From positions 1 through 64,000 of the forward strand of contig CAJXZG010000005.1 in the NCBI GenBank assembly GCA_913063265.1: a stretch of DNA of 64,000 bases, in the 5' to 3' direction. Both the position numbers and the translations under genes were made by a program. This document shows positions 34,474-38,506 of this stretch, one piece after another (position 1 is the stretch's first letter; each line of letters begins with the position of its first letter). The notes beneath the pieces were generated by a model. The model ran no database searches, was not told the origin of the DNA, and was given only the letters and a program-made list of their open reading frames with translations. Source of the stretch: an uncultured Prolixibacteraceae bacterium. Lineage in GTDB: Bacteria > Bacteroidota > Bacteroidia > Bacteroidales > Prolixibacteraceae.

Positions 34474-36429
34474 ATGAAAAAATTAATTAAAACTTTTGCA
34501 ATATTATTATTGTTTGTCTCAATGATTTCCTGTACAACACAACCAGAAAGTTGGACTGTCGATTCTCCGTCTGAAAATATTTTATTTGAAGTGTTTTTGG
34601 ATGATAGTCATCAAGCAAAGTATAATATCTCAATATTGGATTCCGAAGGTAAAAAGGAAGTGGTAGCCAATTCACCAATGGGTATCAAAAGGCGCGATGC
34701 ATCTTTTATAACTAATCTAACTTTTGTTTCCCAAGCCCCTGAAATGACACTTAGTGAATCATTCTCCATGCCAACAGGAAAGCGCAAAATCATCAATACC
34801 GAAGCCAATGAAATGTCGCTAACCTTTAAAAACGAAACCGGAAACCTGATTGAAATTATCGTCAGAGTTACAGATGATGGTGCGGCTTTCAGATATCGTT
34901 TCCCTGAATCGGATGAAAAGTTATTTTTTGTTGAGGAAGAAATTACGGGATTCAATTTTTCGGGCGAGGGAAAAACCTGGATGGCACCTTATGATAAGGT
35001 TACTACTTATTCACCCGGCTACGAACGTTATTTCGAAAACGGGATCCCAATCGGCACCAATGCACCGGACAAAGAAGGCTGGTGTTTGCCCGCTCTTTTT
35101 GAAACCGAAAATGCCTGGGTTTTATTAACCGAAGCAGCACTCGATTCAACCTATTTTGGTTCTCACCTTCAACCTGATGCGGAAGGTGGTTTATATAAAA
35201 TCAGAATGCCGGAGGAAAATGAAGCGAATAATGTTTACAGCCACATTCCTGAATCCACATTACCATGGGCAACACCATGGAGAGTGTTTATAATCGGTCA
35301 AGAACTTTCAGATGTAGTGGAATCTGATTTTGTAGTTGCTCTAAATCCTCCTTCAAAAATCGAAGATGAGTCCTGGATTGTTCCCGGGCGTTCATCCTGG
35401 AGTTGGTGGAGCGACTGGCCAAGTTCAAAAGACTATAATAAACTGAAAAAATTTATTGATCTGGCAGTAGAAATGGGCTGGGAATATTCTCTTGTTGACG
35501 CCAATTGGGATATGATGGAAGGTGGAAATATTGAACAACTTATTGAATATGCCAATTCAAAAAATATTAAAATACAGATGTGGTACAATTCGGGTGGTGC
35601 ACATAATGATGTTACAGAACGACCACGCGATATTATGAGTGACCCTGTGGCACGCAAAGCCGAATTTAAAAAACTGGAAGAATGGGGAGTCAAAGGAATA
35701 AAAGTGGATTTTTTCCAAAGCGATAAGCCCCGCATTATTAAACAGTATTTCGATATTTTAAAAGATGCAGCAGACCATAAAATCATAGTCAATTTTCACG
35801 GTTGTACAATGCCCAGAGGTTGGAAAAGAACCTGGCCAAATCTGGTAACCATGGAAGCAGTAAGAGGTGCTGAAACATATGGCTTTGGCGAAGACTATCC
35901 TGAAAAAGCGGTTTGGCATAACACCATTTTACCTTATACCAGAAATGTAATTGGACCGATGGATTATACCCCTGTAACTTTTTCAAACCAAAAGTTTCCA
36001 CACCTTACCACTTATGCTCATGAGATGGCGTTATCTGTAGTTTTTGAATCGGGCGTTCTTCATTTTGCCGACAATTGTGAATCCTACAGAACCTTACCGG
36101 AAAAGCCAAAAACTTTTCTGAAAACCGTTCCTGTTACATGGGACGAATCCCTATTACTTTCAGGTTACCCGGGAAAAAATTGTGTTATGGCCCGAAGAAA
36201 TGGAGATACCTGGTATGTTGCCGGAATTAATGGATTGGATAAAAACAAAAACTGGGAAATAGATCTCAGCAGACTGGGAGACAAGAGTTTTAATGTTGAA
36301 ATAATTACCGATGGTTCAAACGATAAAGAATTTTCAACACAGGAAATCTCTCTTACAACTGCGAATAAATTAAAAGTTAGTGTATTGTCAAAAGGAGGTT
36401 TTGTGGCTACTTTAAAGAGTGTCGAATAA
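34474..36429 (+). CDS. Glycoside hydrolase family 97 lipoprotein (retaining type, alpha-galactosidase-like)
   Basis: A 651-residue lipoprotein (lipobox MISC, Cys20). The N-terminal GH97 beta-sandwich (residues 25-290) contains VRVTDDGAAFRYRFP. The TIM barrel contains SWSWWSDWPSSKDY, YSLVDANWD, KGIKVDFFQSDKP (Asp412, in the position of the retaining nucleophile) and NFHGCTMPRGWKRTWPN. A small C-terminal sandwich ends the protein. The Asp in KVDF marks the retaining branch, known from B. thetaiotaomicron alpha-galactosidase, rather than the inverting SusB alpha-glucosidase branch with glutamates. The alpha-galactosidase or alpha-L-arabinopyranosidase call is therefore an inference from that residue. 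It lies upstream of the DUF559 cassette. Confidence 0.92.
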   Translation: MKKLIKTFAILLLFVSMISCTTQPESWTVDSPSENILFEVFLDDSHQAKYNISILDSEGKKEVVANSPMGIKRRDASFITNLTFVSQAPEMTLSESFSMPTGKRKIINTEANEMSLTFKNETGNLIEIIVRVTDDGAAFRYRFPESDEKLFFVEEEITGFNFSGEGKTWMAPYDKVTTYSPGYERYFENGIPIGTNAPDKEGWCLPALFETENAWVLLTEAALDSTYFGSHLQPDAEGGLYKIRMPEENEANNVYSHIPESTLPWATPWRVFIIGQELSDVVESDFVVALNPPSKIEDESWIVPGRSSWSWWSDWPSSKDYNKLKKFIDLAVEMGWEYSLVDANWDMMEGGNIEQLIEYANSKNIKIQMWYNSGGAHNDVTERPRDIMSDPVARKAEFKKLEEWGVKGIKVDFFQSDKPRIIKQYFDILKDAADHKIIVNFHGCTMPRGWKRTWPNLVTMEAVRGAETYGFGEDYPEKAVWHNTILPYTRNVIGPMDYTPVTFSNQKFPHLTTYAHEMALSVVFESGVLHFADNCESYRTLPEKPKTFLKTVPVTWDESLLLSGYPGKNCVMARRNGDTWYVAGINGLDKNKNWEIDLSRLGDKSFNVEIITDGSNDKEFSTQEISLTTANKLKVSVLSKGGFVATLKSVE

Positions 36430-36505
36430 TTTTTCCTTTAATCTTTGCAAATTTTTATTGGATCCTTCGTGGCTTTATTTGATATAATTTTAAAAATTTG
36501 AAATA

Positions 36506-36575
36506 CTTACCCTGATTATTATTGCAAAATTATCATCACTCTCTAAACGTAGAGAGGGAGAAGAGGGTGCGTAAA
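36506..36575. repeat. Left direct repeat of the DUF559 cassette
   Basis: This 70-bp segment matches 36964-37033 without gaps at a fixed offset of 458 bp. The last 37 bases (36539-36575) agree at 35 positions, and the first 13 (CTTACCCTGATTA) at 12; the middle has diverged. It includes a 7-bp palindrome (CTCTCTA at 36539-36545 with TAGAGAG at 36550-36556). It ends 9 bp before the ATG of the nuclease gene. Confidence 0.85.
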
Positions 36576-36584
36576 GTAACTGAG

Positions 36585-36953
36585 ATGAGCCAAAATTATA
36601 CACCTAAACAACGGGCAAGACTGTTAAGACAGAATTCAACCGAAGAAGAAAAAATTTTGTGGGAAAAATTGAGGAATAGAAAGTTTCATGGTTTGAAGTT
36701 TCTTCGTCAACGCCCTATTGTATATGATGAGATTAATGGGAGGGTATTATATTTTATTCCTGACTTATATTGTGCTGAAATGAAAACAATAATTGAAATA
36801 GATGGAAAAATTCATGATTTTCAGAAAGATTATGATAATCGCAGGGATGAAATATTAAGAAATATGGGATTAAAAATTCTAAGATTTAAAAATGATGAAA
36901 TCAAAAATATTTCAGAGGTTCTGAAAAGAATTAATTGTTTTATTTTTGAATAG
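36585..36953 (+). CDS. DUF559 (Vsr/PD-(D/E)xK-like) endonuclease-domain protein
   Basis: A 122-residue protein of the DUF559 group, related in fold to Vsr mismatch endonuclease and other PD-(D/E)xK nucleases. An N-terminal basic segment (YTPKQRARLLRQNSTEEEKILWEKLR) is followed by the catalytic core FIPDLYCAEMKTIIEIDGKIH with Asp60, Glu71 and Asp73. The helix DYDNRRDEILRNMGLKILRF completes the fold. It is complete and short. The frame can extend upstream to 36522, but that would start inside the left repeat; the ATG at 36585 gives the usual family N-terminus. The gene fills nearly all of the space between two near-identical palindromic repeats. No partner methylase or transposase is nearby. 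Natural target is unknown. Confidence 0.88.
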   Translation: MSQNYTPKQRARLLRQNSTEEEKILWEKLRNRKFHGLKFLRQRPIVYDEINGRVLYFIPDLYCAEMKTIIEIDGKIHDFQKDYDNRRDEILRNMGLKILRFKNDEIKNISEVLKRINCFIFE

Positions 36954-36963
36954 ATTAGGATTA

Positions 36964-37033
36964 CTCACCCTGATTACGTCAGTGACATAATCGTCCCTCT
37001 CTACTCGTAGAGAGGGAGAAGAGGGTGCGTAAA
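36964..37033. repeat. Right direct repeat of the DUF559 cassette, foldable into three stems
   Basis: The partner of 36506-36575, starting 10 bp after the nuclease stop. It holds a perfect 10-bp palindrome (CCCTCTCTAC at 36995-37004 with GTAGAGAGGG at 37007-37016). A second palindrome has one mismatch (GATTACGTCA at 36972-36981 with TGACATAATC at 36983-36992). Outer arms CACCCT (36966-36971) and AGGGTG (37022-37027) enclose both. The whole could form a three-way junction as DNA cruciform or RNA. It ends 27 bp before the sulfatase start. Confidence 0.85.
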
Positions 37034-37060
37034 AAAACAATATAATATTGAATTTCCATT

Positions 37061-38506
37061 ATGATTCTCAAAAAAACATTTACCCTGATTATTGCTTTGT
37101 TTACCGCAACTTCAATCTTTGCACAAACCCAAAAGCCAAACTTTATCATCTTTATCGCCGATGATGTTAGCTGGGATGATTTGGGATGTTATGGTAATAC
37201 ATATGTAAAAACACCCAACATCGACAAACTTGCACAAGAAGGAATGAGGTTCGATAATGTTTTTCTTACAGCAAGTTCCTGTAGTCCGAGTCGTAACAGC
37301 ATTATTACAGGAAGATATCCACATAATACCGGTGCATGTGAGTTGCACACCGAACCACCAATTGATATGATTTCTTTCCCTGAAGTTTTAAAACAAAACG
37401 GATATTTTACAGCTCAATCAGGTAAATTCCATATGGGAAAATATGCCGAACGTGGTTTCCACTTAACAAGCAACGGAAAAGATATTGGTGATGGAGGAGA
37501 AGCGTTATGGTTAGAAACGGTTCAAAACCGACCAAAAGACAAACCCTTTTTTATGTGGTTTGCAGCGCTGGATGCTCACCGCGCCTGGGGACCCAACAAA
37601 TTCTCGGGAAAACATGATGGAGAGAAAATAGCTTCACCCGATTATTTGGCTGATGGTGCAGAAACGAAAACCGACCTTGCGAAATATTACGATGAAATTT
37701 ATCGCTTCGACAATTTTATAGGACAACTCACCAAGGAACTTGAAAAACAAAATGTTCTGGATAATACCCTTATTTTAATTATGGCAGATAACGGGCGCCC
37801 TTTTCCTGCGAGCAAGACACGGGTAAACGACCGTGGAATGAAAACACCATTCGTGGCATTTTGGCCAAAAGGGATAAACAAAAATCAGGTATGCAAAGAA
37901 CTGGTAAGTGTGATTGATATTGCACCGACTATTCTGGAACTGGCAAGTGCTGAAATACCGGAATCAATCCAGGGAGTTAGTTTTAGCAAACTTTTAAATA
38001 ATCCTGAAAAATCATTCAGAAATTATGTTTTTGCCGAACACAACTGGCATGATTATGAAGCACATGAACGAATGGTAAGAACCAATGAATATCTTTATAT
38101 TTTGAATTCACGACCTCAATTCACCAATCTTGGCCCTGCAGATGCTGTTGGCAGTCCATCTTTTGAAAACCTCGTACAACTGAAAGAAGAAGGTACAATT
38201 TCTACAGAGCAAGCGGAAATTTTTATGGAACCTCGTCCTACAGAGGAATTGTACAATAATTTAGAAGATCCCGAGCAATTTAACAATCTTGCAACAAATC
38301 ACAATTATATCAAAAAACGAAAAAAGCTAAATAAAGTGTTGATGGAATGGATGAAAGAAACCGGGGATGATGTTCCTGAAATTCTAACTGCTGACTGGTA
38401 CGAAAAAGTGCCAGGTTATATAAAAACTCCGGAACACGGTAAAAGGGGTGAAATGCCCGGGACAAAAAACAATGCGGCAATAAATAATAACAAAGGAAGA
38501 TTTTAG
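37061..38506 (+). CDS. S1-family sulfatase (heparan N-sulfatase-like)
   Basis: A 481-residue exported sulfatase with a signal peptide (ends ATSIFAQ). The alkaline-phosphatase-fold core opens with PNFIIFIADDVSWDDLGCYGN, the metal Asp pair. The formylglycine site is SSCSPSRNSIITGRYPH, with Cys74 in the CxPxR motif that an anaerobic sulfatase-maturing enzyme must oxidise. Later blocks are KFHMGKYAERGF, DAHRAW and MADNGRPFPASKTRVNDRGMKTPF. The sequence resembles N-sulfoglucosamine sulfohydrolase-like bacterial sulfatases, but subfamily and substrate are inference. No maturase is in the window. It starts just after the right DUF559 repeat and is followed 18 bp later by the GH78 gene, so the two are likely co-transcribed. 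Confidence 0.93.
   Translation: MILKKTFTLIIALFTATSIFAQTQKPNFIIFIADDVSWDDLGCYGNTYVKTPNIDKLAQEGMRFDNVFLTASSCSPSRNSIITGRYPHNTGACELHTEPPIDMISFPEVLKQNGYFTAQSGKFHMGKYAERGFHLTSNGKDIGDGGEALWLETVQNRPKDKPFFMWFAALDAHRAWGPNKFSGKHDGEKIASPDYLADGAETKTDLAKYYDEIYRFDNFIGQLTKELEKQNVLDNTLILIMADNGRPFPASKTRVNDRGMKTPFVAFWPKGINKNQVCKELVSVIDIAPTILELASAEIPESIQGVSFSKLLNNPEKSFRNYVFAEHNWHDYEAHERMVRTNEYLYILNSRPQFTNLGPADAVGSPSFENLVQLKEEGTISTEQAEIFMEPRPTEELYNNLEDPEQFNNLATNHNYIKKRKKLNKVLMEWMKETGDDVPEILTADWYEKVPGYIKTPEHGKRGEMPGTKNNAAINNNKGRF

Follow-up and report, generated by a model that had tools for sequence, protein, structure and literature searches.

A DUF559 nuclease gene between folded DNA repeats as a candidate unit of a REPtron-like selfish system in Prolixibacteraceae

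Why should a small nuclease gene lie tightly between two copies of a palindromic repeat, and could the three together constitute something that moves? The question is raised by a 64,000-nucleotide stretch of DNA from an uncultured Prolixibacteraceae bacterium (positions 1 to 64,000 of contig CAJXZG010000005.1, assembly GCA_913063265.1; hereafter, the window), in which a DUF559 gene and its two flanking repeats are found between a GH97 gene and a sulfatase gene. We favor the reading, at a probability of roughly 60%, that gene and repeats form one unit of a selfish nuclease–hairpin system that resembles REPtrons, though built on a Vsr/EDxHD-type nuclease and not on a repetitive extragenic palindrome (REP)-associated tyrosine transposase (RAYT). 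In REPtrons, as described in the available portions of two reports (PMC6006769, PMC3733652), palindromes flank a dedicated gene that has a cognate repeat family, gene-less copies are dispersed, and presence is patchy. The original prediction for this locus, of a nuclease-driven mobile repeat unit with REP-like logic, is thereby supported; neither confinement of the repeat to this locus nor empty sites retaining both repeats, each of which would have told against it, was found.

The arrangement itself (Table 1) is as first described. Bases 36506-36575 and 36964-37033 are identical at 56 of 70 positions, 35 of them within the last 37; among window 70-mers lying 458 bp apart, this pair alone reaches 56 matches (mean, 18.8; standard deviation, 4.0). 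The open reading frame of 122 amino acids starts 9 bp past the upstream 70-bp repeat and ends 10 bp short of the downstream one, with the repeat core beginning 9 bp past the stop codon. The palindromic nature ascribed to the repeats likewise holds, the 68-nt core folding as a DNA three-way junction. In the downstream copy, this junction consists of an outer stem (ACTCACCCT/AGGGTGCGT) and two inner hairpins, with a DNA fold well below that of shuffled sequences (z = -4.7 on the + strand, -5.5 on the - strand); the upstream copy, the more degenerate of the two, folds less well (z = -2.1), with 7 of 200 shuffles equally good.

Alignment of 16 repeat copies from the window genome and related genomes points to maintenance of this fold. 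Paired bases make up 93.3% of the cells (86.7% in shuffled alignments; 0/500 as high), and 30 cells are changed on both sides of a pair (shuffled mean, 9.4), versus 1 single-side standard change; the number of pairs with any double change (6 versus 4.5) and that of further pair types (10 versus 9.7) are not clearly above shuffles. Because G-U intermediates are nearly absent, the constraint probably acts on DNA rather than RNA. Some copies have an unrelated, well-paired palindrome as hairpin 1, and others an additional palindrome within an arm. At L021, L022, and L149 (L and G numbers denote loci and genomes, respectively), CCTGCC...GGCAGG-type palindromes are inserted in the hairpin arms of repeats, giving hairpins within hairpins.

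The window protein matches PF04480 at 101.8 bits (curated cut-off, 20.6) over positions 4-105 of 109, and a Pfam search returned DUF559 plus only a sub-cut-off PvuRts1I-like match. Residues T19, E22, W26, Q42, D60, and G74 are conserved in 84/84 homologs, and E71, D73, and H77 in 83/84; all nine are intact in the window protein and constitute a putative active site with a presumed catalytic role. Against solved structures, a profile of 39 homologs matches 3hrl ("Endonuclease-Like Protein") at E = 4.1e-32 and 3r3p ("Mobile intron protein") at E = 6.7e-8 over 71 positions, the latter being the catalytic domain of the homing endonuclease I-Bth0305I. That enzyme stands for the EDxHD family (PMC3943268). 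Judged by these profiles, the window nuclease is a DUF559 family member related to an EDxHD homing endonuclease.

Flanking repeats are widespread among DUF559 genes, and those beside the closest homologs of the window gene are related to its own. In a set of 84 short DUF559 genes drawn from 34 genomes, direct palindromic repeats (300-bp flanks; score of at least 36) lie on either side of 45, versus 0/53 control open reading frames and 5/562 random windows; the 84 derive from 117 DUF559 matches (104 hits in loci) after dropping 6 duplicate loci, 12 proteins of >250 amino acids, and 2 short flanks. Across the phylum, where DUF559 matches occur in 171/296 sampled genomes (fused proteins counted), such repeats are present at 31/55 genes versus 0/25 open reading frames and 11/820 random windows, for 55 of 58 loci chosen from the strongest stand-alone matches. 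Among the closest homologs, from a named collection, 49 of 69 tested window-clade genes are flanked (69 of 80 loci used), with 13/96 random windows scoring too in these repeat-rich loci. The window's own genome has seven DUF559 genes; those that pass the test each have a different palindromic family, and around L010, L011, and L012 no direct repeats were found, hairpins being seen on both sides by eye only. DUF559 genes fixed at one syntenic place have repeats at 0/14 versus 45/70 for the others (p = 5e-6). These repeat-free genes, in two syntenic groups (L036, L037, L041, L052, L056, L089, L099, L103, and L117; L048, L053, L091, L093, and L094), may have a host function. DUF559 domains also occur within open frames of ~840-1310 amino acids (L030, L034, L035, L039, L040, L043, L046, L049-L051, and L055), a setting unlike that of the short genes.

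Every DUF559 clade is accompanied by a palindromic DNA repeat family particular to it, predominantly in a single orientation. When non-syntenic loci from different genomes are compared, a repeat is shared (score of at least 50, same orientation) by 150 of 256 pairs with at least 60% protein identity, 11 of 207 at 50-60%, 8 of 1543 at 40-50%, and 0 of 1247 at 30-40%; the corresponding numbers for the opposite orientation are 23, 11, 0, and 2. Repeat family and nuclease clade correlate with a Mantel r of 0.72 (highest of 2000 permutations, 0.09), and among 194 decided pairs that share a repeat, 169 score better with the repeats in the same orientation relative to the gene and 25 in the opposite one. 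The two parts even overlap: 10/14 window-clade genes run into their downstream repeat, which opens with the final codons and stop of the gene (ACTCACCCTGA or ACTCTCCCTGA), the last 11 bases of the gene being the first 11 of the repeat; some of these loci are syntenic or tandem, and so not all are independent. A similar hairpin, of the form CCYCTCT/AGAGRGG is found near 30/70 homologs outside the window's group, versus 1/70 genus DUF559 genes of other clades, by a pattern devised once the window family was known and detecting 7/14 genus window-clade units and 10/66 phylum loci. It is near 11 of 19 listed loci labelled with other phyla and absent near 8; the records that have it, many of them metagenome bins, include Acidobacteria, Aminicenantes, Spirochaetota, Chlorobiota, and Nostoc.

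The recurrence expected of a mobile repeat is borne out as well. By a covariance model, the window's genome contains 16 copies, counting the two in the window, and 34/37 genomes of the genus contain one or more, versus 0/24 other genomes of the order; copy counts from this model, made with stricter filters, are lower bounds. Gene-less copies are scattered in the genomes of the genus, far from any DUF559 gene. The median number of copies is 12 in the 12 genomes with a window-clade DUF559 gene versus 3 in the 19 genomes without one that are at least 90% complete (one-sided p = 1.1e-4); this main test left out 6 genomes of <90% completeness, whose inclusion (25 non-carriers in total) gives p = 6.9e-5. 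Broken DUF559 matches resembling the window gene are present in a genome counted among the non-carriers, G032 (10 copies), and dropping it gives p = 8.3e-5. At L107 (G027) and L134 (G018), the repeat is in tandem arrays; a spacer at L107 holds ATGAGTATTAAA, a sequence resembling the beginning of a DUF559 gene of the window clade, as though internal deletion had produced the gene-less units.

At orthologous sites, both gene-bearing and gene-less copies are patchy. The L104 site has element–gene–element in G002 and G025 and one gene-less element in G010, while G013, G014, and one G030 copy have an empty intergenic space; nine relatives' loci comprised 1 filled, 1 with a single element, 3 plainly empty, 1 with another small palindrome, and 3 too different, in a cluster of similar genes (possible paralogy) and with a repeat family that differs from the window's. 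At a locus that we take to be radA from its translation, G025 and G005 carry a window-clade DUF559 gene plus downstream repeat, and 11/11 other loci read have a 61-89 bp spacer without such a repeat. Sites lacking the gene thus retain one repeat or none at L104 and none at radA, instead of the two that would have undermined the original prediction. The flanks of empty G030 are 95.5%/92.9% identical to those of G025 and the flanks of filled G005 88.4%/89.1%, with the unit itself 88.2% identical between G025 and G005; this pattern could reflect descent with repeated exchange for empty alleles, or double entry at the same site. Candidate empty counterparts of the window locus, at G017 and G016 (the best two GH97 matches; 72-73% identity), showed no unit, no DUF559 gene, and no sulfatase gene in the stretch available. 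They were rejected as empty sites: the neighbourhood differs and synteny is broken, and therefore nothing follows for the window locus.

Gene-less copies have their own history of presence and absence. For 7 of 16 such copies in G010, the site matches G002, a close relative, as one 206-224 bp piece without the element, and some of the other nine sites keep an element; gene-less copies have therefore moved or been lost recently. Twelve of the 16 lie directly after an intrinsic terminator, versus 7/320 random positions (16 of 17 loci retrieved, from 19 G010 copies counted). At L337-L353 (G010; core at position 501), the gene-less copies are contained in ~190-bp elements with common outer arms, CTGAAAGTC... 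/ ...GATTCCCGGGAATCATGAATGTTT. These arms were considered as true element ends and rejected, since they were not found next to any DUF559 gene. When 400 kb of G002 and G010 were compared (93% identity in the chain; 43 indels of at least 20 bp), the indels listed, with a length difference of at most 620 and a leftover of at most 45, included no window-type repeat and a few with other palindromes. Two gene-less insertions of ~480-510 bp, alike by eye, are present at ~148128 and 310724 of G002:C1 and absent in G010; one follows a terminator-like T-run.

In the REPtron-like reading, the DUF559 protein would recognise its own repeat once this is extruded, with outer stem and two hairpins, in single-stranded or cruciform form, and would cut there, with repair or re-joining of the cut then spreading the gene-plus-repeat unit and, more often, gene-less repeats. 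On this reading, DUF559 itself would drive repeat movement, and the window unit would itself have moved. A Caulobacter DUF559 protein is needed for a DNA-damage response in methylase-deleted cells, according to the available part of PMC12907096; the family can therefore act on DNA in cells.

Several observations weigh against this reading. With respect to the pairing of gene and repeat, (i) only 4/7 DUF559 genes of the window's own genome pass the direct-repeat test, (ii) at the radA locus, two window-clade units are followed, but not preceded, by the repeat, (iii) sharing in the opposite orientation occurs in 23/256 close pairs and in 11/207 at 50-60% identity, and (iv) genomes without the window-clade gene can have up to 14 copies (two such genomes, one of them <90% complete). 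The copy-number comparison also includes copies beside the gene, and its statistics ignore relatedness. With respect to the fold and its movement, one outer-stem pair is unpaired in 11/16 copies; the ~50-70 bp outer arms of the mobile G010 gene-less copies were not found beside DUF559 genes, and therefore another enzyme may move those copies; and neither a target-site duplication nor a fixed insertion chemistry was seen in the seven filled/empty pairs of G010 and G002, where ends are readable in few (L347 and L351), at a T-run without clear duplication.

Other explanations account for parts of this evidence. A free-standing DUF559 endonuclease could act as a homing element, cutting the unit-less allele so that recombination copies the gene in, with the repeats as landing sites or homology arms. 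This would suit the profile match to 3r3p, the presence of a unit at the same radA position in G025 and G005 when closer relatives of G025 such as G030 are empty, and the L104 locus, with its single repeat in one relative and repeat–gene–repeat in two genomes. We nonetheless consider it unlikely, since gene-less repeats are scattered on their own, empty radA sites present no repeat to cut, the units of one clade are found at many unrelated loci, and the identity of the radA unit is about that of its flanks, with no sign of recent transfer. Alternatively, another enzyme, e.g., a Y1 (RAYT-like) transposase, would move the repeats and DUF559 genes would be passengers in repeat-rich spots. In its favor, Y1 (PF01797) matches occur in 13/13 genomes searched (76 in total); a weak one, L331, shares a repeat-rich locus with two DUF559 genes, the repeat near DUF559 gene L126 adjoins weak Y1-like genes in G013 and G025, and the G010 outer arms are not seen beside DUF559 genes. 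However, the window repeat was present at 0/30 of the Y1 loci read (of the 76 matches), several of which have other repeats of their own; DUF559 is therefore left as the enzyme consistently paired with these repeats. A passenger also explains neither the clade-specific pairing, nor the stop codon within the repeat, nor the similar hairpin beside homologs outside the window's group, making this alternative quite improbable in our estimation.

We give very little weight to two further possibilities that would dispense with movement by the nuclease. Were the hairpins to terminate transcription of a small gene or stabilise its mRNA, and their recurrence to be that of common regulatory signals, the repeats near both gene ends and the intrinsic terminators preceding 12/16 G010 gene-less copies would make sense. 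Yet the changes on both sides of pairs, with almost no G-U, fit DNA folding better; gene-less copies are distant from any DUF559 gene; and no Rfam family was above threshold in 36000-37600 (RF02706, at E = 0.072, is at chance level). Were DUF559 instead a housekeeping Vsr-type mismatch-repair nuclease and the nearby repeats incidental, one would cite the two repeat-free, syntenic DUF559 genes of the genus, along with Caulobacter VsrA, for which PMC12907096 (available part) describes a functional link to a solitary cytosine methylase and proposes the activity of a mismatch-repair nuclease. Incidental repeats should neither match the nuclease clade nor contain the stop codon of the gene, and so this, too, is scarcely probable for the window unit; it may well be true of the repeat-free, fixed DUF559 genes.

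More tentatively, and with slightly less than even confidence, DUF559 proteins might be motors of widespread one-gene mobile elements of ~500 bp that read the three-way junction at the 3' end of their own gene. The mobile cassette would then be the gene plus its 3' repeat, with scattered repeats as gene-less derivatives; enzyme and hairpin would have co-evolved over several phyla, and a REP-like system would have arisen independently on an unrelated nuclease fold. Integron gene cassettes similarly have a folded repeat directly 3' of the gene and form arrays; no search for integrase or attC was made. IS200/IS605 elements are small and have subterminal DNA hairpins, but differ in transposase fold, and no constant element ends were found for the window family.

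REP/REPIN-RAYT systems are alike in that palindromes flank a nuclease gene and belong to a repeat family particular to that gene type, with gene-less copies dispersed and presence patchy. The window enzyme, in contrast, is DUF559 (PD-(D/E)xK, Vsr/EDxHD-like) and not a Y1 HUH transposase, and its repeat has no conserved GTAG/CGTC tag, the 16-copy alignment having ACTCACCC ends (by eye); moreover, window-type repeats are three-way junctions, with the stop codon of the gene inside the repeat in 10/14. As two tested defining features (Y1 enzyme and tag) fail, the window system is not a REPtron member. EDxHD homing endonucleases (I-Bth0305I; PDB 3r3p) share a related nuclease domain and patchy orthologous sites, whereas the 122-amino-acid window protein has no space for the long DNA-binding part described in the accessible text of PMC3943268, the window repeats stand alone in many copies, and no intron or intein host was seen. 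Caulobacter VsrA is of the same domain family, but its proposed substrate is a T-G mismatch, and the word "repeat" occurs 0 times in the available text of PMC12907096.

DUF559 is still listed by Pfam as being of unknown function, with one member tied to mismatch repair (PMC12907096, available part). If our reading is true, repeat-flanked members gain a second role via a cognate folded repeat, part of the palindromic repeats in these genomes is accounted for, and nuclease-driven hairpin repeats have evolved more than once, on an unrelated nuclease fold. In the open-access collection searched, no title or abstract start linked DUF559 with repeats, most subscription papers being outside this scope.

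Table 1. Coordinates of the window unit and of a repeat near another DUF559 gene (window positions unless a genome and contig are given)
Feature	Position	Strand	Parts or support
Upstream hairpin repeat, 68-nt three-way-junction core	36505..36572	+	Covariance model E = 2.1e-16 (copy in model's own alignment)
Upstream repeat, outer stem	36505-36513/36564-36572		
Upstream repeat, hairpin 1	36514-36534		
Upstream repeat, hairpin 2	36536-36559		
DUF559 nuclease gene, 122 amino acids	36585..36953	+	PF04480 E = 2.5e-29; conservation over 84 homologs
Downstream hairpin repeat, same orientation	36963..37030	+	Covariance model E = 6.8e-21 (copy in model's own alignment)
Downstream repeat, outer stem	36963-36971/37022-37030		
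Downstream repeat, hairpin 1	36972-36992		
Downstream repeat, hairpin 2	36994-37017		
L126-type repeat near weak Y1-like gene	G013:C1:1878637-1878687		
L126-type repeat near weak Y1-like gene	G025:C3:518772-518822		

The last two rows concern a repeat ~650 bp upstream of DUF559 gene L126 (L126:1237-1287) that recurs beside the weak Y1-like genes; DUF559 and Y1 repeats can thus share a neighbourhood. Matches between Y1 flanks and window-clade flanks at L326 (score, 49) and L329 (score, 36) were rejected as instances of the repeat: the former contains no hairpin and the latter falls in the GH97 side of the window flank. The Y1 transposase genes of the genus at L313, L318, L323, L328, L334, and L335 are bracketed by strong direct repeats that differ from the window repeat, and are perhaps REPtrons.
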